DNA from: a virus
Reading direction: 5' to 3' (one strand)
Virus record (IMG/VR): IMGVR_UViG_3300006947_000073
Location: 1-26,333 of that record
DNA: 26,333 nucleotides
Position numbers and translations under genes: made by a program. Of this stretch, positions 1,666 to 24,581 are shown piece by piece (position 1 is the first letter of the stretch; each line of letters begins with the position of its first letter). The notes beneath the pieces were generated by a model. That model was not told the DNA's origin. It searched no databases and saw only the letters and a program-made list of their open reading frames with translations.

Positions 1666-2904
1666 CTATAAACGAGTTTTTAACTCATCTATCTGTAACT
1701 GCTGCTCTTTAATTGCTTCAATTAATAACGCGACAATTTTATCATAACGTACTGCTTTGAAACCCGTTTCTCGAGTTTGTACTATTTCGGGTAGTACTTT
1801 CTCAATCTCTTGAGCTATTACTCCTATATCCCGGCCTGTATAAAGGTCTTGTTTGTTATTCCAATCAAATGTTACTCCATTAATTTGAGATAGTTTCTCT
1901 AATGGTGATTCAATTGGCACTATATTATCTTTTAGGTTTCTATCTGAAGACTGGTATGCTATAACATCTCCTGATGCTGATATTGCTCCTTTAACTAACA
2001 TACCGTAAGGGCTATCTCCTATTGAAGAAGATATTATTAAACTACCTGATACAGTAACGTCAGTAGCAAATTTTTTCTCTCCTGTAAATGTCTGAGCTGT
2101 AGTTAGGTGAGCTGTATCTGAGTCTAAGTATGCTGATGCTATGATAGTGCCTTGCCATGCTCCTGTTCCTATTGTGCCTACCGTGGTAATACTCGCTTGA
2201 GTAAAGTGTTCATTTGAGGCAAAGTTTGTTGTTGCATCATGGTTTACTTGAGCTGAGCTTGTAATTACACTATCTCCTAATTTTCTTAATATTGTACCAT
2301 CAACTACTATATCATGTGCATTTGCAGTAATTCCATCTCCACCTACAACGTTGATAGTAGCACTAGCGCCTAAAGCTGCGCTTCCTCCACCTGTCAAACC
2401 ATCACCAGCAACATAACTAACTGAATCATTTGCAAGTTGTGAATTTGGTATAGAACCACTTACAACACCATCGGCGTCTAATTTAGTTTTTACATTTGAA
2501 TCAAAATTTGTAACTGTATCTGCATTTACTTGAACAGATGAAGAAACTACTCCGTCTAAATTAAACAGAGTATCCATCTGAGCTGAAGATGAAACTATTC
2601 CTGTTGGTAGTGCTGATGCTACTCCATCTGTAAAAGTTCCTGATGTTGTGTCGAGTGTGATAGCTCTTGAAGTTACTATCGTACCTCCGCCTGTTAATGC
2701 TCCTGTTCCTGTTATGCTTACACCAGAATGATCAATATGGTCATTAGCTACAAAATTAAGTGTACTATCATGATCGACTTGTGCCGATGCAGAAAATACA
2801 TCAGTAAGACCTTGGAAGCCTTCAGAGGCTGTTATTGATCCTACTATTTCTAAGTCATCTGTTATATAAAGTGACCCAGTTAATTTTGAGCGAGTTGATG
2901 CCAT
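1666..2904 (-). CDS. Tail fibre/spike with C-terminal S74 chaperone domain
   Basis: This 412-aa protein has a repetitive Gly/Ser/Thr/Ala-rich shaft at about 1-315, with recurring VSSSAQV-type phrases and GLTGGG turns suggesting a trimeric beta-structured fibre. A peptidase S74 domain follows from about 319. SSDRNLKDNI marks the autocleavage point (Ser with Lys325 as the likely dyad), followed by GRDIGVIAQEIEKVLPEIV and a C-terminal coiled coil. S74 domains trimerise and fold the fibre, then cut themselves off. It is the last and most distal gene of the tail block, as expected for a receptor-binding fibre. The N-terminus (TRSKLTGSLYITDD) probably attaches to neighbouring tail proteins. The S74 assignment is strong; host-receptor binding is inferred. 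Confidence 0.9.
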   Translation of the reverse strand: MASTRSKLTGSLYITDDLEIVGSITASEGFQGLTDVFSASAQVDHDSTLNFVANDHIDHSGVSITGTGALTGGGTIVTSRAITLDTTSGTFTDGVASALPTGIVSSSAQMDTLFNLDGVVSSSVQVNADTVTNFDSNVKTKLDADGVVSGSIPNSQLANDSVSYVAGDGLTGGGSAALGASATINVVGGDGITANAHDIVVDGTILRKLGDSVITSSAQVNHDATTNFASNEHFTQASITTVGTIGTGAWQGTIIASAYLDSDTAHLTTAQTFTGEKKFATDVTVSGSLIISSSIGDSPYGMLVKGAISASGDVIAYQSSDRNLKDNIVPIESPLEKLSQINGVTFDWNNKQDLYTGRDIGVIAQEIEKVLPEIVQTRETGFKAVRYDKIVALLIEAIKEQQLQIDELKTRL

Positions 2905-6224: not shown

Positions 6225-7343
6225 TTATACTAAGGAACCACTGATTAAAGCTCCTTTTTCGTTAGTTGTTGCTACGCCACCTGTTTCTAATATATAAAAC
6301 TTAGAGTTAGGAACACGTATGTATCGTTTAATACCTTCATTCCAATCATAAATATGACTACCGGATGTAGGGTATTTACTATATTCTGTAAAGAAATTTA
6401 CTTCGGTTGATGAAGAGTTATTGTTTAAAATATGATAAACAGATCCTGAGTTGGAGCTACTATAGAAGATTCTTTCAGTTTCATCATCTTTAAAGTTAAA
6501 GTAAAAGTTTTCTATTTCTCTTTCGTTTGGATTAATATTTCTTATTGTTGAATCATCTGCGAAGAAATCATGTCTAGAACCTTTAAAGGATATAAAAGAT
6601 AATGATGGCGGATCTTCAAAGAAGATTGGTGTTGTTGTTGTATTTCCAATCTGGTTATATGATGTGCCTATTGGGAATAGTTTTGATCCATTATACCTAC
6701 CGTTTATCCATCCAGTGGAACTATAATTAGACTCCTGTACTTCGGCTTCTAAGCTTCTAGAGGTGGCATTTTCTAATGAAGCAGTAATTTGCTCAAGGTT
6801 ATTTGGTTGTAATTGACTTCTATCTCTATCTACAGAAAACCTAAAGTGGGATGTTAAAGGTTGGGTTGCATTATTTTCTGTTGCTTCGTATTCACTTAAG
6901 TCAATTCTACCTTCTACAAATGGTTCCATATAGACTGTTTTGTCTACTCTGTTACCACTTCCTGTTATTAAGTTATTAAAATAAGGATCTCCCTTTGTAT
7001 ATGTTGACGAACTTAGTAATAAGCCATTATTATCCTGTGCTTCTAGTCTTTCAAATTGTATAAAGTAATAACCGGTCTTTCTTGTTAAATTTAAGGAGCT
7101 GAAATCTAAACGTGATGGTGATTGTGTTAGCTGCCCTGATGATGACATAAAGATAGTAAGGTCATTAAGCTGGTTTAGTGCTCCTTCTACTTCAATTGCA
7201 TTATCACTTTCGAATGGAATTGATACAGCCATTACAACATAATCTCTAAACTCTCCTGAGATTAGGTTAGAGGAAGACATTAGTATATTAATAGACCCGT
7301 CTACTGGTTTTTGATTCGAGAATTCAAGTAGATTAATTGCCAT
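6225..7343 (-). CDS. Structural protein, 372 aa, unknown
   Basis: The 372-aa product is Ser/Asn-rich with many short SSS and GS turns and aromatic residues, consistent with an extended beta-structured virion protein. N-terminal landmarks are INLLEFSNQKP and FRDYVVMAVSIPFES. The C-terminal part contains IYDWNEGIKRYIRVPNSKFY and ends ISGSLV. I do not recognise the family. Its start codon overlaps the stop of the upstream Hint protein gene (TAATG), pointing to translational coupling. Position between repeat-rich tail proteins and fibres suggests a tail-tip or fibre-connector role. Confidence 0.75.
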   Translation of the reverse strand: MAINLLEFSNQKPVDGSINILMSSSNLISGEFRDYVVMAVSIPFESDNAIEVEGALNQLNDLTIFMSSSGQLTQSPSRLDFSSLNLTRKTGYYFIQFERLEAQDNNGLLLSSSTYTKGDPYFNNLITGSGNRVDKTVYMEPFVEGRIDLSEYEATENNATQPLTSHFRFSVDRDRSQLQPNNLEQITASLENATSRSLEAEVQESNYSSTGWINGRYNGSKLFPIGTSYNQIGNTTTTPIFFEDPPSLSFISFKGSRHDFFADDSTIRNINPNEREIENFYFNFKDDETERIFYSSSNSGSVYHILNNNSSSTEVNFFTEYSKYPTSGSHIYDWNEGIKRYIRVPNSKFYILETGGVATTNEKGALISGSLV

Positions 7344-9085
7344 TATTTTATGTTGTGTGTTAGTATTCCGTTGGCGTAATAAACATCATCATCTTCTACA
7401 TTTAATTTATACACGTTTCCGTTATATTCTTCTTGTGTTATAGAAGTAATTTCTACTAAGTCACCATTAATGTTCTCAAAGTAGTCTCCTATTTGTACAT
7501 TAGTTGCTTTTTGTATTAACCATTCAACACCTCTTTTTACTATGTGTAAGTGTCCTGCTGTAGTTTTTATTAATCCATTATTGAAGTTCCAAACAAAAGG
7601 ACTAATAGTTGATGGATTATTTGTTACTGTTGCTGTAGAAGGATTACCGTCTATATTACTACTATGCCACTGTGTAAGTGTTACAGGATCATCTGAGTCT
7701 ACTAATGTTTCAATATGTTTAGAATAGACTGTGTTCCCTATTTCTAAGTTCTGCACTGGTGTTGTTTCTGATATAGATATAGATATTGATGTTCCTTCTA
7801 TAACACAATTGTCTGCGCAGTTTTGAATTGAGGTTACATAACCACTACTGTTTAGTGTTACTAAGTCATTATACCCGCCTAATCCAGATGCTCCATTTTG
7901 GTAGTATCCAGCAGCGGTTGTTACTGTTCCTGTACTATTATTATAAATTCTATCTCCAGGTGATGGTTGTCCAGATCCGTCATGCCAGTGGTTTACAAGA
8001 CTTCCGACAGGGCTACAAGCAGAGACTAGGGAGGCTCCTGGTGGGAACAGTTTAACCAGTGTTAGGTTCAATGCTGATGTAGATGGTGTTATAGACTTAC
8101 TTGGTGTTACACTTGGTGTAATAGATACGGATGGTGTAGCTGATACGGATGGTGTAACGGATACTGAAGGTGTAACTGATACGGATGGTGTTCTACTTGG
8201 TGTAATAGATACGGATGGTGTAACGGATACACTAGGTGTAACTGACACTGATGGTGTTCTACTTGGTGTTACCGTAACTGAAGGTGTGACTGATACGGAT
8301 GGTGTAACTGATACGGATGGTGTAACTGATACGGATGGTGTAACAGATACGGATGTTGTAACTGAATTTCCTGGTGTAGCTGATATTGTAGGTGTTACCG
8401 TAACTGAAGGTGTTCTACTAGGCGTAACTGACACTGATGGTGTGACTGATACGGATGGTGTTACGGATGTACTTGGTGTTCTACTTGGTGTAACTGAAGC
8501 TCCTGGTGTGGATGATAATGATGGTGTTACACTTGGCGTAACTGACACTGAAGGTGTAGGTGAAGCTCCTGGTGTGGATGATACACTAGGTGTTACGGAT
8601 GTACTTGGTGTTCTACTTGGTGTAACTGACACTGATGGTGTTACAGATACACTAGGTGTTGCACTAGGTGTTACCGTAGCTGAGGGTGTAGGTGGTACGA
8701 ATGCAAAGTCATTTGTACATTCAGTAACACTTCTAAATATAAAACTATTAACTCCTTCACCTGTTGTTAAGGTAACTCCATTATTTAAATCATCTTTACC
8801 TAATACGTTTTTATAAACAGTACCTGAGAGAGTTACACTGCCTGTCATAAGAGAAGCTGCTGTATACTCATCTACTATGTCTGCGTATTGACCAACAGCT
8901 GAAGCTGTATAGTCCCAGCCTCCAAACTCTTCTGCATTGGCGTTTGTACCTATTATTTTATTAGCTGCTATTTCTGTATTAGCATATACATAGAATGGGC
9001 CGGCATCTGCAATAGCTCCTTGAGTACTACCTGTCGGTGTATTCTTCCAACCTACTACTTGATATTTATATCCTAAAAATCCCAT
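7343..9085 (-). CDS. PT-repeat tail protein with C-terminal Hint (intein-like) domain
   Basis: This 580-aa protein has four parts. Residues 1-125 form an N-terminal domain (GFLGYKYQVVGWKN...). Residues 130-338 are low-complexity SVSVTP/SRTPS repeats. Residues 351-426 form a Cys-bounded small module (HWHDGSGQPSPGDRIY, AAGYYQNG). Residues 427-578 look like a Hint domain: Cys427 starts CVIEGTSISI (block A), T509-A-G-H512 gives the TxxH of block B, and VYKLNVEDDDVYYANGILTHN gives the final strands with terminal H577-N578. Only Ile-Lys follow, so there is no Cys/Ser/Thr for splicing. Bacterial intein-like domains of this kind can cleave themselves or attach the N-terminal part to another nucleophile. 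A TATTTATA box lies 10 nt before the ATG. The virion location is inferred. Confidence 0.85.
   Translation of the reverse strand: MGFLGYKYQVVGWKNTPTGSTQGAIADAGPFYVYANTEIAANKIIGTNANAEEFGGWDYTASAVGQYADIVDEYTAASLMTGSVTLSGTVYKNVLGKDDLNNGVTLTTGEGVNSFIFRSVTECTNDFAFVPPTPSATVTPSATPSVSVTPSVSVTPSRTPSTSVTPSVSSTPGASPTPSVSVTPSVTPSLSSTPGASVTPSRTPSTSVTPSVSVTPSVSVTPSRTPSVTVTPTISATPGNSVTTSVSVTPSVSVTPSVSVTPSVSVTPSVTVTPSRTPSVSVTPSVSVTPSVSITPSRTPSVSVTPSVSVTPSVSATPSVSITPSVTPSKSITPSTSALNLTLVKLFPPGASLVSACSPVGSLVNHWHDGSGQPSPGDRIYNNSTGTVTTAAGYYQNGASGLGGYNDLVTLNSSGYVTSIQNCADNCVIEGTSISISISETTPVQNLEIGNTVYSKHIETLVDSDDPVTLTQWHSSNIDGNPSTATVTNNPSTISPFVWNFNNGLIKTTAGHLHIVKRGVEWLIQKATNVQIGDYFENINGDLVEITSITQEEYNGNVYKLNVEDDDVYYANGILTHNIK
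8072..8698 (-). repeat. SVTP/SRTPS codon repeat tract 1
   Basis: This is an in-frame degenerate 18-nt unit (SVSVTP), mixed with 12-15 nt variants (TPSRTPS, SSTPGAS), coding residues 130-338 of the Hint protein. Near-identical units would allow copy-number change by slippage. The antisense frame is also open because of the repeat. Confidence 0.9.
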
Positions 9086-9147: not shown

Positions 9148-12100
9148 TTATATAGTACAGAATGCTGGGTTAATAAATGCTGTTCCAGTCCAGTATTTGT
9201 GTTTAGCTCCATTACTAAAGTACCTTGCTGATGGATACGATGTTGTATTTGATGTTGCCCATACAGATGTTGCTGCATTGAAGGAGGCATGACTAAAGTA
9301 CCAGGTTTCTGGTGAGTTTTCATGTTCTGCACAAGCATCATTTCCTGAGGCTGTATGCCATCCTACTGTAATTGCATACCTAGTAGCAAGAGCTGATTTA
9401 GATGGTGTTACCGTAACTGATGGTGTCACAGATACTGAAGGTGTGACTGATACGGATGGTGTTACCGTAACTGAAGGTGTAACAGATACACTAGGTGTAA
9501 CTGATACGGATGGTGTTACCGTAACTGAAGGTGTGACTGATACGGATGGTGTAACTGATACGCTAGGTGTTCTACTAGGCGTAACTGACACTGAAGGTGT
9601 AACGGACACTGAAGGTGTGACTGACACTGAAGGTGTTCTACTTGGTGTAACTGATACGGATGGTGTAACTGATACGGATGGTGTAACTGATACGCTAGGT
9701 GTTCTACTTGGTGTTACCGTAACTGAAGGTGTGACTGATACTGAAGGTGTGACTGATACTGAAGGTGTAACTGACACTGAAGGTGTTACCGTAACTGAAG
9801 GTGTAACTGATACTGAAGGTGTAACTGACACTGAAGGTGTTACCGTAACTGAAGGTGTAACTGACACTGAAGGTGTTACCGTAACTGAAGGTGTAACTGA
9901 TACTGAAGGTGTAACTGACACTGAAGGTGTAACTGACACTGAAGGTGTTACCGTAACTGAAGGTGTAACTGATACGGATGGTGTAGATGATACTCCCGGT
10001 GTAGTGGATACGCTAGGTGTTACCGTAACTGAAGGTGTTCTACTTGGTGTTACCGTAACTGAAGGTGTAACTGATACTGAAGGTGTAACTGATACTGAAG
10101 GTGTAACTGATACTGAAGGTGTAACTGATACTGAAGGTGTTCTACTTGGTGTTACCGTAACTGAAGGTGTAACTGATACTGAAGGTGTAATGGATGGTGT
10201 TCTACTAGGCGTAACTGATACACTAGGTGTTCTACTCGGTGTAACTGATACTGAAGGTGTTGCACTTGGTGTTGGGGAAACTACCGGAGTAACTGATACT
10301 GAAGGTGTTGCACTTGGTGTAGCGGATGGTGTAACGGATGGTGGTACAAATAAACGTACTTCGAAGTCGCAGTCAAATGACATATCGAATATATTAATAT
10401 CAAATATTAAATTTTTACCAGACTGTTTTTTAAATTTATTACCTCTTGTTATGTCTTGATGTGCTGCTACAATAAGAGAGCCGCTTAATTCACCATTAAA
10501 TGTCGGTGACTCATCATCTACTATTCGTAAAGCTGATCCTGATTTGGTTGGTACATAATCGTTATAGCTGGTGGTTTTATCAAAACTATACAATGAGCCT
10601 ACTTCAAAAATTCCTCCTGATGAACCTGAGATTTGAGCGACTGAAACAGACCCTGTAAAGTCTCTTTGTTCGAAGGAACCTGATACTAGTCTAGCTTTAC
10701 TTCTATCAAGTACGTTTGGTTTAATGATAATACCGGTAGATGCATTTGATCTGGCTGGTATATAGTCTTTTATGGATCTAAATAATGTATTGTCAAAAAA
10801 CCTTATTAAAGATACAAAGTCTTTTAGGTCATATCTACTATTGTCTTTAGTGTAGTCTTCAAGTAAACTTCTTAGCCCTGTATATTTAGTACTGTCTCCA
10901 TCACTTGGTGCGCCGATATAATCGTCAATATTAATACCTCCTGCAGCTGAAGCTGAGTGGTATATTTGTGCGTTGATAGCGTCTGCAGGTGAAAAGCCAA
11001 CTTCAAGAGTATGCTGCCCTGTTGTTCTTTTATATACCTTTCTTCTTATAGTTCTATCAGATAAGAGAGCTGATCCTTCTGCTAGGGACCCAGTAACATC
11101 AACTGTAATTCTATCTAGAGAGCTAGTTACCTGAGTTACTGAACCAGTTATAAATTCTTCTGGTGATAGGAATACATTAGATTCTCTATCTAAATTACCG
11201 TCTATTTTTATTGATAAAATATCGGATGGTACTCCATAACAGTTTATTAGTGCTCTTAAACCTCTTTCGGTACCTTTGGTCTTAGTTAAATAAGGTAGGT
11301 TGTGGTATAATCTCTTATAAACTTCCTGTATGTAGGACTGTTTAGGCATTGGTTGTAAGTACGCCTGAGGTCCGGATGATGCTGTTACATGAGTTGCTAT
11401 AGCATTTGTACTTCCTGATTGGTATTCTTGACCAGTGAAATATGAGAATAAATTCTCTAATGATTCGTTGCTGGAGTATAGTTTAACTCCGAAGCTCTTT
11501 AAAGCATCTCCTACTAAATCTCTTGATATACCATAATGTAGTCTATTATCTCCATCGTATTTATCAGATAAAGCTTTTTGATATATCCATATATTATCGA
11601 AGTGTTGACCGAGCATATACACAAAGGTTAGTGCTTCGTTATTGTCTGCATCTTCTCTTATAAAGGCCGGTATTGCATTCGTTAATGTATTAAAGTTACT
11701 AGTATCGAAGTTGGAAGAAGATTGTATATTATCTGTAAACCATGTAGAGGTTGTAGCCTCACTACTCGATACCAGTGTATAGGGTCGAGATGAATTTGCT
11801 TTTGGCCAAGCATAGCTGCCGCTTTCATAATAAAGAAATCTATCGTAGTGATCAAAATTATCAACTACTCCAGTAATTAAACCTTCGTAATATGCTATAC
11901 TACCTGTTATATCTGTATTATTATTACCGGTTGCTTTTACAGTAGCTATACTACTACTATACCCTTCTACTAATTGTAATTTATATTTAAAGTTTCTTAA
12001 TCTTTCTTCAGCTGAACCAAAGTGTACAAAGTTAGAAAAGTCTGTATGGTCTATACTTATTGCTGAGCCGCTTTCACTAGACAGAGACATTAGTTCGTAG

Positions 12101-12915
12101 TAGGAACTACTTACTGGGTAGCTAAATAATTCGTTAAAGCTATAGAAAGGACTTGGTGTGCCTTGTGTTTCATCTACATTTACATCCCAGTTTGGGCCTG
12201 CTATTTTTGAAAATACTTCTGGATCTGCTATTGTATTGGCTGTTACTTCAAACGCCTGGCTATCACTGATAATATCAACTACTGTTAATATATCTTTAGG
12301 TTTTATTGTTCTGGGTAGTGGTTCGTATAATCTTATTAGTACGGCAGTCTGTTTTTTGTACTGTTGAGTGCTTATATTTACCGCTATTACTAATTTATTT
12401 TCTAAAAAGTTTAATCTAAAGTCACTAAAATAAGAATCGCTATTAATTGCAGCTTCTATATTAGCTGTTGTCTTACGAATAAAATTATCTGTTAATTGAG
12501 CAGATAGTATTCTTAACTCCATTCTATCTTTAGAGATAGTGTCTATAAAGAACTGTGGTTGATTAGATCTCTTACTGTATAAATTATTTACAAAGTTATA
12601 AACAAACCTAATATCACCAGAATTATATCCTAATTCTATTGCATCTTTTGCAGGGTCTAATTCTATTGTAGACTCTCCTGATTTACCTGCTCCTGCTGCT
12701 GTAGCAAGAAAAGAATGACCTTTGTAATTATAAGAAGACTTTAGTAGAGTTCCTGTTAAGTCGTATGCATGTAGTTCAAGATTATTTACTCCTGTTTTGA
12801 AAGTATTAGAAACTTGAAAGTCTCTTACTAATGCTACATCTTTAGCACTATAAGAGTCTATACCTGTTACTTGTTCAGGGGATAGTGAAACTACATTATA
12901 TTCTATTTTAGCCAT
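9148..12915 (-). CDS. Large tail/baseplate protein with long SVTP repeat tract
   Basis: The largest gene in the window encodes 1255 aa. Residues 1 to about 855 are a structured Ser/Tyr/Asn-rich region. It contains a segment around 535-560 (NLPYLTKTKGTERGLRALI) resembling a motif seen in phage tail proteins of the P2 gpI type. Residues about 858-1172 are SVSVTP, TVTPS and SRTPS repeats. The last 80 residues form a compact Cys-bounded module (ACAEHENSPETWYF to NPAFC) reminiscent of the one in the next gene. The repeats probably make an extended rod that displays the terminal module. It follows gp6 and the DNRLRE-like protein, so a baseplate-periphery or long fibre role is likely. The start at ATG 12915 is 9 nt after the previous stop. 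Confidence 0.85.
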   Translation of the reverse strand: MAKIEYNVVSLSPEQVTGIDSYSAKDVALVRDFQVSNTFKTGVNNLELHAYDLTGTLLKSSYNYKGHSFLATAAGAGKSGESTIELDPAKDAIELGYNSGDIRFVYNFVNNLYSKRSNQPQFFIDTISKDRMELRILSAQLTDNFIRKTTANIEAAINSDSYFSDFRLNFLENKLVIAVNISTQQYKKQTAVLIRLYEPLPRTIKPKDILTVVDIISDSQAFEVTANTIADPEVFSKIAGPNWDVNVDETQGTPSPFYSFNELFSYPVSSSYYELMSLSSESGSAISIDHTDFSNFVHFGSAEERLRNFKYKLQLVEGYSSSIATVKATGNNNTDITGSIAYYEGLITGVVDNFDHYDRFLYYESGSYAWPKANSSRPYTLVSSSEATTSTWFTDNIQSSSNFDTSNFNTLTNAIPAFIREDADNNEALTFVYMLGQHFDNIWIYQKALSDKYDGDNRLHYGISRDLVGDALKSFGVKLYSSNESLENLFSYFTGQEYQSGSTNAIATHVTASSGPQAYLQPMPKQSYIQEVYKRLYHNLPYLTKTKGTERGLRALINCYGVPSDILSIKIDGNLDRESNVFLSPEEFITGSVTQVTSSLDRITVDVTGSLAEGSALLSDRTIRRKVYKRTTGQHTLEVGFSPADAINAQIYHSASAAGGINIDDYIGAPSDGDSTKYTGLRSLLEDYTKDNSRYDLKDFVSLIRFFDNTLFRSIKDYIPARSNASTGIIIKPNVLDRSKARLVSGSFEQRDFTGSVSVAQISGSSGGIFEVGSLYSFDKTTSYNDYVPTKSGSALRIVDDESPTFNGELSGSLIVAAHQDITRGNKFKKQSGKNLIFDINIFDMSFDCDFEVRLFVPPSVTPSATPSATPSVSVTPVVSPTPSATPSVSVTPSRTPSVSVTPSRTPSITPSVSVTPSVTVTPSRTPSVSVTPSVSVTPSVSVTPSVSVTPSVTVTPSRTPSVTVTPSVSTTPGVSSTPSVSVTPSVTVTPSVSVTPSVSVTPSVSVTPSVTVTPSVSVTPSVTVTPSVSVTPSVSVTPSVTVTPSVSVTPSVSVTPSVSVTPSVTVTPSRTPSVSVTPSVSVTPSVSVTPSRTPSVSVTPSVSVTPSVSVTPSRTPSVSVTPSVSVTPSVTVTPSVSVTPSVSVTPSVTVTPSVSVTPSVSVTPSVTVTPSKSALATRYAITVGWHTASGNDACAEHENSPETWYFSHASFNAATSVWATSNTTSYPSARYFSNGAKHKYWTGTAFINPAFCTI
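9401..10345 (-). repeat. SVTP/TVTPS codon repeat tract 2
   Basis: A second, longer tract of the same 18-nt unit codes residues about 858-1172 of the 1255-aa protein. Units are more uniform than in tract 1, with runs of SVSVTPSVTVTP. Shared DNA identity with tract 1 could allow recombination between the neighbouring genes. Confidence 0.9.
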
Positions 12916-14411: not shown

Positions 14412-16235
14412 TTATACTGTTGTTATTCTACCTTTTATGTCTGAATTTGGATACTTTATTTCAAATATACAAGGATCATATGAAGGATATATTACGTTGT
14501 TTCTTTTTGCTGCGTTAACATCGTATTCAAACTTAGAATATGTTGCTCCAACCTTATTAACTATCTCTATTTTCTGTACTGTTTGTACTCCTTTTACTTT
14601 ATCTAACAGTGTTGTTATTTTTGAAATATTAATAGGTTGATTTATGTTTCGATTACTTATTGCAAAGTAGGATTTAACTACATTAGTACAGTTTAGAAGT
14701 ACTTCTCTTCCAGTATGGTTAGGTAAAGCTAATATTTCAAAGTTAAATCCAATATTAACTATAAATGCGTCTTTTATATTAACTGAGTCTGTAAGTAGCA
14801 TATACTCTGATAAGTATTTCTTAAGGTTTTGTTTTAAGTTAGGAGTAGCTGTTGTTACCTTACCGTTATTATCGTAAGCTAATACATACAACGATAAAGC
14901 AAATGGATTATTATTAACTAAAGATTCAGCAGCTTCTCCTTGTGTAGCTTCGTCTTGTGTAATATATGTCTTAGCCACTGATCCGAATCTTGATGGTAAT
15001 GAATTAGCTCTCACACTATAATCTTGCAATGTTACAGCTCTACCCTGTTCACCAAATGCTCTCATAGTATTCTGTCTTATCTCTTCTGTGGAATCTCCAT
15101 CCTTACCTCCTGTTGCTGGAAGTGGGTTAGTGAATGCTAAAGTATTTAAATAGGTATCATCTGTAGCACTTGTAGTTACTGCAGTGGTTCCTGTGATTGT
15201 ATTTGCTGGTACATTAGATACTATGCCTCCTCCTCTAATATACTTTATAGTAAGGGTAGTATTAGATGGAGCTAAACCATACGTTCTAGTAAATAAGAAG
15301 TTTGATGGATCATATGAATGATCTAATCTACTTATTCCTTCTGCATTACCTACACCTACGTTAGCAGGGTTTGGAGTAATTATGTTATCTTCTGAAGGGC
15401 TTACGCCTGATCCAAACTGTAAGTTTAGATCTCCATTTGCATTGAATCTTGTTACATATCTTCTTGGAACTTTTTTAAGTACCATCTTATGAGATACTCT
15501 ATCGCTATCTGAATCTGTGTTAGCTTCATCATCAAATACTGTTTCTTGACCTAAGTAAGGTACTTCTGTCCAACTGTATCCATCTCCATCTGTAACAGAA
15601 ATTATACCAACTATGTCAGTATCTTCAATTGCTACTGTTTGGAACTTTTCTGCATTTCCTATTGGAATTGTAGTAGTAAATACTTCTCCTGAGAATGCTT
15701 TAGCTTTTTTCTTTAGTGTATATTGAGCTGGATGACCTGATTCAATTGAGTGAACTGTTACGTCTGTTGGATCATATGAGCTTGAATAAGAAAAATCTAC
15801 TTGTCTGTCTATAATAAACTGTGGAACTCCTGATGTCTGGGCTGTAAGTTGAGCGTCTTCGTTAACTAATATAGCTTGGTTATAGTTCGGTTGGTAATTA
15901 TATGTCGATCCTAGTGATGCTACTTGTTGGGATATTTCTATTTCTACTTCTGATACTGTAGTCACTTTAGGTCTATATCCTAACATATAAGCTAAGGAGT
16001 ATAAATTTTCTGGGTTCTTAGCATGTTGTACAAATGTCTCTTGTAACTGTATATCTTGATAAAAAGATAATACATCTCCTACATATGAAGCCATTTCTAT
16101 AAACATCATACCAGGTGATGTCGGTGAGAAGTCGTTGTATGAATCAGGAAAATAGTTTTTTGCAAACTCTACTAATTGATTTTTAAAATCAGCGAAATTC
16201 CTATTAACGTATTTTATGTCTTTTTGTTCAGCCAT
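14412..16235 (-). CDS. gp6: Baseplate wedge protein gp6 (baseplate J family)
   Basis: This 607-aa protein is close in size to T4 gp6 (660 aa). The N-terminus has a conserved region at 35-90 (DFSPTSPGMMFIEMASYVGD, LSFYQDIQLQETFVQ, LYSLAYMLGYRP), the hallmark of gp6-like wedge proteins. A baseplate-J-type segment occurs near 370-410 (GGKDGDSTEEIRQNTMRAFG, VTLQDYSVRA). In T4, gp6 dimers form the inner ring that holds the wedges together and responds to baseplate conformational change. The start ATG 16235 overlaps the end of gp25, the same gp25-gp6 adjacency found across T4-like phages and type VI-like injection machines. Confidence 0.92.
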   Translation of the reverse strand: MAEQKDIKYVNRNFADFKNQLVEFAKNYFPDSYNDFSPTSPGMMFIEMASYVGDVLSFYQDIQLQETFVQHAKNPENLYSLAYMLGYRPKVTTVSEVEIEISQQVASLGSTYNYQPNYNQAILVNEDAQLTAQTSGVPQFIIDRQVDFSYSSSYDPTDVTVHSIESGHPAQYTLKKKAKAFSGEVFTTTIPIGNAEKFQTVAIEDTDIVGIISVTDGDGYSWTEVPYLGQETVFDDEANTDSDSDRVSHKMVLKKVPRRYVTRFNANGDLNLQFGSGVSPSEDNIITPNPANVGVGNAEGISRLDHSYDPSNFLFTRTYGLAPSNTTLTIKYIRGGGIVSNVPANTITGTTAVTTSATDDTYLNTLAFTNPLPATGGKDGDSTEEIRQNTMRAFGEQGRAVTLQDYSVRANSLPSRFGSVAKTYITQDEATQGEAAESLVNNNPFALSLYVLAYDNNGKVTTATPNLKQNLKKYLSEYMLLTDSVNIKDAFIVNIGFNFEILALPNHTGREVLLNCTNVVKSYFAISNRNINQPINISKITTLLDKVKGVQTVQKIEIVNKVGATYSKFEYDVNAAKRNNVIYPSYDPCIFEIKYPNSDIKGRITTV

Positions 16236-16645
16236 TATTGTTCAAAATTTATATTCAGAAAGTCTTCTATACCTGTTTCGCTTATCTGGTATGCCATAGA
16301 AAAATTTACTGCATTATTATCAGGGTTAGCAGATGTTACTATCCTTGTTGGTATTACTGCAGGAAAATATAGTTGTAAAGATGATCTTACTTCTGAGTCT
16401 ATTTGTGCTATTTTCTCTTCTGTTAGGTTATCAAATAACAACCTTCTTAAACCTGTTCCAAAGTTAGGATTAAAAAATCTTTCACCCTTGCTGGTTAAGA
16501 AGAAGTTAATTATATTATTCTTAATTGCATCTTTTGTAGTATATGTAGAATTAAATACTGCTTGGCCGGTAAAGGGCAAAGAGACGCCTACTGCCTTACG
16601 AGGCTGTCTATCTAATGGATTAATTCTTTTTACTTCAAATGCCAT
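16235..16645 (-). CDS. gp25: Baseplate wedge protein gp25
   Basis: This 136-aa protein is nearly the same length as T4 gp25 (132 aa). The core motif GERFFNPNFGTGLRRLLF at 54-71 is the family signature: in gp25/TssE proteins a related loop contacts the sheath and gp6. It is preceded by IKNNIINFFLTSK, and a C-terminal beta region ends DFLNINFEQ. gp25 nucleates sheath assembly at the baseplate in contractile tails. Its presence next to gp6 marks the particle as a contractile-tailed myovirus. The gene overlaps gp6 by 1 nt and is separated from the upstream gene by 1 nt. Confidence 0.93.
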   Translation of the reverse strand: MAFEVKRINPLDRQPRKAVGVSLPFTGQAVFNSTYTTKDAIKNNIINFFLTSKGERFFNPNFGTGLRRLLFDNLTEEKIAQIDSEVRSSLQLYFPAVIPTRIVTSANPDNNAVNFSMAYQISETGIEDFLNINFEQ

Positions 16646-23645: not shown

Positions 23646-24581
23646 TCACTGTATAATATGATGATACAAGAGCTCAGCTAACCCCTTGTGATCGTATGAG
23701 TTAGGATGTTCCCCTCTATATGAACTATCTTTCTCCGTAAGCCACTGTCTCCAAGAAGAAGATCCATTAGGGAATATGTACATATCTGAGTGAATTAAAT
23801 CTCCCCCGTATTTAACTCCTCCTCCGAACAGGTTAGTTAAGTTCGATGAAATAGCTTTACTGTATGCTATTACATCACAGAGGTTATTAATAAAAATACA
23901 TTTGATATTGTTTACCCTACAGTAAGAACTAATAAGATCCATCTTCATCTTTACCTCATCCTTTAGAATGCTTATATTAGAAAAGTGTTTAGCTGATATA
24001 TCCCAATAAGTCTCCCACTCCTCCTTACTTAGGTATGGAAAAGTAGATTTTCTAAAAAACTCAACATTATCATTAGTCGTCCCGTTATAAACTAAATCAG
24101 AATATGAAAAATGATACCATATACCACCCTCCTCATCGTAACGCTCTGTACGCATCAGTTCAGACAGGCCCACTATGACTGCAGCCTTTTTACCACTATA
24201 TAAATCACCAGAAGACTTTATCCAGTTATATGCAGTTCTGAATATATAATCATTACCAGCTCCAGTAGCAGAAAGGTTAACTGGTTTAGCTCCAAATTTA
24301 GCTGCTAATAGGTTAATAAAAGACTTTTCCCTCCAGTTTATATGTTTGAATGTATTGTTATCCAGCCAATCTTTATCCTCCAACTTTGTATCCACCCAAT
24401 CTTTATCCCCCAACCTTGTATCCACCCAATCTTTATCCCCCAACCACCCTGTTGTTTCAGCACGACTGTAGTAAGAAGCATATTCAGACAGAAAACGTGT
24501 ACGTAATGGATTCTCCCCCTCGATAGCACCCTTAAAGAAAGAACATCCAACGGCGCATATAACTTTTATCTCTTCTGTCAT
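23646..24581 (-). CDS. SGNH/GDSL-like hydrolase with internal tandem repeat
   Basis: This 311-aa protein has SGNH-type blocks: VGCSFFKG at 11-18 (Ser14 in the GDS position), GAGND at 107-111 (Asn110), and EHPNSYDHKG at 291-300, where H292 or H297 could be catalytic. Residues 46-75 are three copies of a 10-residue unit (WLGDKDWVDT, RLGDKDWVDT, KLEDKDWLDN). SGNH hydrolases act on esters, often acetylated polysaccharides or lipids; here it could modify capsule or glycan on the host surface, or be part of the tail. The substrate cannot be told. Pattern spacing supports the fold only moderately. A TATTTATA box lies 18 nt upstream of the ATG. Confidence 0.6.
   Translation of the reverse strand: MTEEIKVICAVGCSFFKGAIEGENPLRTRFLSEYASYYSRAETTGWLGDKDWVDTRLGDKDWVDTKLEDKDWLDNNTFKHINWREKSFINLLAAKFGAKPVNLSATGAGNDYIFRTAYNWIKSSGDLYSGKKAAVIVGLSELMRTERYDEEGGIWYHFSYSDLVYNGTTNDNVEFFRKSTFPYLSKEEWETYWDISAKHFSNISILKDEVKMKMDLISSYCRVNNIKCIFINNLCDVIAYSKAISSNLTNLFGGGVKYGGDLIHSDMYIFPNGSSSWRQWLTEKDSSYRGEHPNSYDHKGLAELLYHHIIQ
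24357..24446 (-). repeat. Three 30-nt in-frame tandem repeats
   Basis: Three adjacent 30-nt units encode 10 residues each within the SGNH-like gene (cores GDKDWVDT, GDKDWVDT, EDKDWLDN). The DNA copies are almost identical, implying recent duplication. Confidence 0.85.

Follow-up and report, generated by a model that had tools for sequence, protein, structure and literature searches.

We analyzed a 26,333-nt stretch of DNA (hereafter the window; positions 1 to 26,333 of IMG/VR record IMGVR_UViG_3300006947_000073) from an uncultured marine virus of the T4-like type; Flavobacterium phage immuto has a related tail cluster (67.5% nucleotide identity between immuto and the window over 44% of a 7.5-kb query). 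The gene of interest lies on the minus strand at 7343-9085 (codons from 9085 to 7346, stop codon at 7345-7343) and encodes a 580-aa protein. Its neighborhood includes a gene for a gp25-like baseplate protein (16235-16645), a fibre gene with a C-terminal Peptidase_S74 self-cleaving chaperone (1666-2904, minus strand; Pfam match at 3.9e-17) and, on the same strand at 9148-12915, the gene of a 1255-aa PT-repeat tail protein, whose C-terminal domain ends in Cys-Thr-Ile-stop and carries no Hint domain in the window. From this gene neighborhood, we infer that the 580-aa product is a tail protein as well.

The 580-aa protein can be divided into an N-terminal domain (residues 1-128; 8702-9085, minus strand), which was used to find homologues, a Pro/Thr/Ser/Val-rich repeat linker (residues 133-337; 8075-8689, minus strand), a C-terminal domain containing Cys357 and Cys423 (residues 338-426; 7808-8074, minus strand), and, directly after it, a predicted type-A BIL-like Hint domain (residues 427-578; 7352-7807, minus strand), beyond which only the dipeptide Ile-Lys remains (7346-7351, minus strand). 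Orthologues were detected on IMG/VR contigs L001-L004, L015, L016, L017 and G004-G007, with 75-80% identity in the N-terminal domain for L015, L016 and L017. The AlphaFold2 model of the N-terminal domain had a pLDDT of 39.5 and was unusable for placing the protein. Two long plus-strand frames (8286-8816 and 9443-10459) oppose the PT-repeat regions and are probably by-products of the tandem repeats rather than genes. Elsewhere in the window, a 30-base tandem repeat (24358-24445; 2.9 copies, 94% matches) is located inside the ORF at 23646-24581, where it gives repeated DWVDTRLGDK-like peptides.

The original prediction placed a Hint domain at the C-terminal end of the protein on the basis of intein-like landmarks, and the translation contains them exactly as claimed: Cys427 followed by VIEGT, TAGH at residues 509-512, THN at residues 576-578 and the final Ile-Lys. 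In loose form, these landmarks were recovered in 109 of 200,000 shuffles of the domain. Profile searches and structure prediction, both proposed along with the prediction, pointed in the same direction. Searched alone, the window sequence matched Pfam Intein_splicing (2.6e-5 to 2.8e-4) and PT-HINT, in both cases under the cut-off (the curated one for Intein_splicing), and its 209-aa C-terminal piece scored 17.5 bits against NCBIfam TIGR01443 (intein C-terminal region; cut-off 15.6). Such single-sequence matches to Hint families are weak but consistent, and they are suggestive of a Hint domain. When the family profile was compared with solved structures, the best match was the BIL domain 2LWY (3.6e-6), followed by the Tetrahymena BIL2 structures; of the 11 family members, 10 matched PT-HINT and 10 matched Intein_splicing.

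Residues 338-580 were modeled with AlphaFold2 from 11 relatives, at a mean pLDDT of 85.8. Foldseek searches with this model yielded 56 PDB chains at E<=0.001 (best E 9e-9); the matches listed were BIL, intein or Hedgehog domains, and the first five were BIL domains. Superposition by VIA-align gave a Z score of 20.5 to Tetrahymena BIL2 (rmsd 1.7 over 138 residues) and of 18.5 to the Clostridium BIL (2LWY), in a register that places model residue 90 (Cys427) on intein residue 1 and residue 241 (Asn578) on the last residue. In a viral structure library, the top matches included proteins of the sizes of phage NCTB gp132, gp136 and gp135 (1304, 506 and 153 aa) and uncultured-phage proteins named 'Hint domain containing'. 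The predicted structure settles the question and confirms residues 427-578, as modeled, as a genuine Hint domain. A chance motif match is ruled out by the structure together with residue conservation.

Conservation of the catalytic residues was then examined in 22 divergent phage Hints drawn from several groups, with a mean pairwise identity of 29%. In this alignment, invariance is limited to His512 in block B (TAGH; 7550-7561, minus strand) and His577-Asn578 in block G (7352-7357, minus strand), the predicted site of Asn cyclisation; the probability that three invariant columns are all catalytic is about 2e-5, with the qualification that part of the set was found by a His-Asn-containing pattern with motif-set boundaries and is not fully independent for His-Asn. 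No selection step made use of His512, and the profile and tblastn searches recovered relatives without requiring His-Asn. Cys427 (7805-7807, minus strand), the predicted nucleophile of the N-S acyl shift, is replaced by nothing other than Ser among the relatives: 19 of the 22 Hints start with Cys and 3 with Ser, and block B has Thr in 19/22 and His in 22/22. Ser was seen in L029, L060 and one G006 copy. Diverged relatives on other marine contigs retain the Cys/Ser nucleophile together with the block B His and the terminal His-Asn. Among five distant phage Hints, 5 of 8 invariant columns are catalytic (p about 9e-8). This conservation could partly be structural. The dN/dS ratio of the Hint (0.12-0.43) indicates purifying selection. 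The residue preceding Cys427 varies among relatives (N, Y, F, L, C, Q or A), so that selection on the cleavage site is not visible. Taken together, the fold, the profiles and the conserved catalytic residues bear out the proposed terminal Hint on a tail-cluster protein.

The missing +1 nucleophile, another element of the prediction, has likewise held up: only Ile-Lys follows Asn578, with matching tails in relatives. In near and distant orthologues, His-Asn is followed by a final dipeptide (IK, FK, DK or DR), and one Hint copy on the neighboring protein ends in QEIGVH, which makes the +1 residue Ile, Phe, Asp or Gln in the window family. If the window relatives, NCTB, SNUABM7 and Afa-NA1 are considered together, the +1 residue is never Cys or Ser and is Thr once. 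Retention of the terminal Lys merely through overlap of the stop codon with the next ATG is possible for the closest relatives, but L025, L058 and L063 keep it without such an overlap.

By every testable feature of sequence and model, the domain appears to be a type-A BIL-like Hint: it combines the Hint fold, an N-terminal Cys/Ser, the block B Thr-x-x-His, a C-terminal His-Asn and a lack of +1 nucleophile with a length of 152 aa (130-155 aa in type-A BILs), no homing endonuclease and a variable protein region. Class 1 inteins occupy a conserved site inside an intact host protein and are followed by a +1 Cys/Ser/Thr and a functional C-extein, whereas the window Hint is terminal, without downstream extein, and is followed by Ile-Lys-stop. 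A canonical intein with an overlooked C-extein is ruled out, since the frame stops at 7345-7343, where the next gene starts. The Hog domain of Hedgehog has a sterol-recognition region after the Hint and no terminal His-Asn, whereas here His-Asn is present and the protein ends two residues further on. A pretoxin is ruled out because PT-HINT pretoxins carry a toxin domain past the Hint and this protein ends after it.

With regard to chemistry, type-A BILs form an N-terminal thioester and cyclise the terminal Asn of their His-Asn, a +1 Cys/Ser/Thr not being obligatory (PMC4031507; see also PMC5874633). They are reported to splice through attack of the freed amino group on the N-terminal thioester, although with cleavage products dominating (PMC4031507; PMC9185962), and BILs that lack a +1 nucleophile cleave by default (PMC7664689). 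By contrast, one review holds that type-A BILs are unable to ligate (PMC7765530). The earlier statement that this domain cannot splice is thus too strong, given the ligation without +1 nucleophile reported in PMC4031507 and PMC9185962, despite the disagreement of the review. Because the C-flank has two residues, splicing would only re-attach Ile-Lys, and the practical outcome would be removal of the Hint.

The junction between the Hint and the rest of the protein offers a further clue. Where a Hint is present, its first residue lies 0-4 residues past the last Cys of the preceding C-terminal domain. A similar domain, as judged by eye, ends the Hint-less 1255-aa neighbor two residues beyond its last Cys, and the Hint-less ends of the large protein read Phe-Cys-Thr-Ile-stop in the window, Phe-Cys-Ile-Ile in G002 and Met-Cys-Met-Ile in G001. 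The junction therefore lies at a natural type of C-terminus, and a cleaved product would end much like the Hint-less neighbor.

Homologues of the large protein (~1,260 aa) with a terminal Hint were found on L025, G004 and G006; both adjacent tail proteins are Hint-bearing in G004, G006 and G007, and the large one in G008. In the tree, the large-protein Hints form one group (support 99/97), a pattern consistent with one duplication of the Hint module that was then kept in place. Exact 48-bp words are shared by the repeats of the 580-aa and 1255-aa genes in the window, a plausible route for exchange between them. Of 62 large-protein homologues whose C-terminus is visible, five terminate in a Hint, with or without a short tail after it (L097 and L100 among these show the same end), and the other ends are highly variable. 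The five include L097/L100 (4597-8838) and L140 (4543-8763), which have a different type of Hint close to the C-terminus and a short tail after it (HNKGEDDPGRTYC... and HNKEELNYQEQC...), apparently an independent acquisition. The 580-aa homologues located through the N-terminal domain lie on contigs whose copy is Hint-bearing. In the complete 160-kb genome of Immutovirus immuto, no Hint was detected at family-profile sensitivity, and genes 162 and 163 adjoin at the place of the window's 580-aa gene. No relatives were found in bacterial genomes at the sensitivity used.

Considering sequence and model together, we regard a self-processing Hint acting as a shed C-terminal cap as the best explanation, with a probability of roughly 0.6. 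By analogy with characterized Hints, the protein probably removes its own C-terminal part as virus particles are made. The last 152 residues before Ile-Lys would be a type-A BIL autoprocessing Hint fused directly to a variable, repeat-bearing tail protein. Cys427 would take over the peptide bond after Asn426 to form a thioester (an ester where Ser is present), which would then undergo hydrolysis or, on occasion, resolution by the freed Ile-Lys, while cyclisation of Asn578 would free the two-residue tail. These steps follow Hint/BIL chemistry, and the fold, catalytic residues, missing +1 nucleophile and junction come from the present analysis. In this way, the virion would receive a protein whose C-terminus lies near residue 426, and the 17-kDa Hint would be discarded. 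Such a Hint would most likely serve as a temporary C-terminal cap, shed after folding or assembly of the appendage; its role, but not its chemistry, would then resemble that of the Peptidase_S74 chaperone, which another fibre of the cluster carries. Against a shed cap, N-terminal cleavage alone needs no terminal His-Asn, as Hedgehog without it illustrates; its strict conservation along with the two-residue tail is not fully explained, and simple release accounts poorly for the joint retention of His-Asn and the terminal basic residue.

Among the alternatives, the one that survives best, though still unlikely, is a Hint fold that persists as a stable knob at the terminus or as a binding domain, with any reaction being slow or accidental. 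The tandem Hints of another phage family (two to three per protein; L064 and L066) do look modular, but conservation is highest at the block B His and at the terminal His-Asn, and position 1 is occupied only by Cys or Ser, both chemically competent.

It had also been proposed that Hint chemistry might release the N-terminal part or transfer it elsewhere; as to release, autoprocessing is plausible, while transfer to a virion or host nucleophile is possible but not favored. Under transfer, which we rate below the non-cleaving module and as rather improbable, the Cys427 thioester would be attacked by a nucleophile of another virion protein or of the host surface, and the PT-repeat protein would become covalently attached by its C-terminus. 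It can be likened to Hedgehog with cholesterol and to the BILs of ciliate polyubiquitin loci, which are reported to activate ubiquitin-like proteins; the Tetrahymena BUBL1 locus is reported to supply a ubiquitin-like protein in activated form with no consumption of energy (PMC9200820), and BUBL1 BIL2 is the closest solved fold (Z 20.5). In addition, the terminal Lys/Arg is widely kept, and the two adjacent Hint tail proteins of G004, G006 and G007 suggest that two reactive termini may share one structure. However, no acceptor, substrate-binding extension or partner gene was identified, conservation is lacking at the residue before Cys427, and cleavage is the default for BILs of this kind. A built-in ligase, in which the terminal Hint would hand over the residue-426 thioester to an amine or thiol, either of the neighboring tail protein, itself Hint-bearing in related phages, or of the host surface, is less likely still; if true, it would mean that the appendage is covalently fixed without a separate enzyme.

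Splicing as the purpose of the domain, with residue 426 ligated to the dipeptide by type-A BIL chemistry to give a mature end ...Asn-Ile-Lys, is very unlikely. Lys before a stop codon is common in AT-rich genomes, the added dipeptide has no obvious benefit, and the BILs studied give mainly cleavage products. Such a purpose would nevertheless be in line with the retention of His-Asn and the terminal [I/F/D][K/R] even where no next-gene start overlaps the stop codon, and ligation without a nucleophilic side chain is on record for type-A BILs (PMC4031507). The least probable reading by our estimate, a former class 1 intein that lost its C-extein by truncation and is decaying, would agree with the two-residue C-flank, the absent +1 nucleophile and a Hint-less neighbor that could be taken for an empty site, located two codons ahead of its stop. 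However, decay is ruled out by dN/dS, which shows purifying selection, and by conservation, eight diverged orthologues keep the same architecture, four contigs have it on the neighboring gene with Hints that form one well-supported group, there is no endonuclease or its remnant, terminal Hints occur in unrelated phages too, and the frequent inactivating changes required in relatives are not seen.

By analogy with known Hints, self-removal appears to be the likeliest outcome, with transfer onto a second molecule less likely. Although this type of domain is known, there is little description of its recurrent placement at the very end of phage tail proteins. A literature search, with subscription papers mostly outside its reach, found no paper on BIL domains on phage tail proteins. 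The recurrence of terminal Hints on tail proteins in unrelated phage lineages, jumbo phages included, provides a simple testable setting, in which the protein in a purified virion is trimmed at the Hint junction, intact or cross-linked. If it is trimmed, the Hint would join Peptidase_S74 as a means of finishing tail appendages; if cross-linked, phages would own an enzyme-free means to bond them.

Several known systems can be compared with the window domain. Type-A BILs (Clostridium thermocellum BIL, PDB 2LWY; the related Tetrahymena BUBL1 BIL2, PDB 6Y75/6TMM) are alike in fold, Cys start, block B Thr/His, terminal His-Asn, non-nucleophilic +1 residue, length of about 150 aa and variable protein region; unlike them, the window domain, whose activity is predicted from sequence and model, is terminal on a phage tail-cluster protein with two residues after it. 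The terminal arrangement is not unique to the window phage, and some records already name the domain. The view that a Hint on a phage tail protein would be unusual is thus too strong, as terminal Hints occur in several phage groups and tail proteins of phage NCTB (LT598654) are annotated with intein domains: gp136, gp135 and gp132 ('contains intein domain', 'intein domain protein' and 'large intein domain protein' among the NCTB annotations) have a C-terminal Hint ending in His-Asn plus 3-7 residues with a non-nucleophilic +1 residue. These Hints are detected by the window family profile at 5e-23, with the usual Cys start in 2/3 of the proteins. NCTB differs in being a jumbo phage unrelated to the window phage, in its collagen-like or other N-terminal parts and in the glycine linker before the Hint in two proteins. 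Erwinia phage SNUABM_7 gp117 and Alcaligenes phage Afa-NA1 also have a collagen-like tail protein with a terminal Hint and His-Asn plus 10-12 residues, but SNUABM_7 has Thr at +1, and canonical splicing chemistry is possible there.

Other phage Hints were also observed. A second protein family (starting MKGTFFSSDF...LRLLEINTDT) has terminal Hints, up to 2-3 in tandem, that end in His-Asn-Lys(-Val/-Lys)-stop; its members are L064 (1627-3924, minus strand; G001:C1), L066, L048, L050, L052, L039 and L046, and one copy shares a contig with the window orthologue L017. L065 (1074-2798, minus strand; G009:C1:91500-97000) encodes a 575-aa phage protein with a Hint between an N-terminal part and a Laminin_G_3 lectin-like domain, where His-Asn is followed by Lys and a type-A BIL may separate or join two real domains. 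Vibrio phages 1.265.O/1.266.O (L010 2393-4486, L011 1294-3417) have intein-like Hints with a +1 Cys in a protein encoded near portal/capsid genes. The class 1 inteins of phage terminases have the same fold and catalytic residues as the window Hint, but they lie inside a conserved protein and have a +1 Cys/Ser/Thr and a real C-extein (e.g., L032-L037), neither of which applies to the window Hint. Finally, Peptidase_S74 (endosialidase chaperone), although its fold and chemistry are unrelated to Hint, offers a parallel as a self-cleaving C-terminal domain of a phage fibre.
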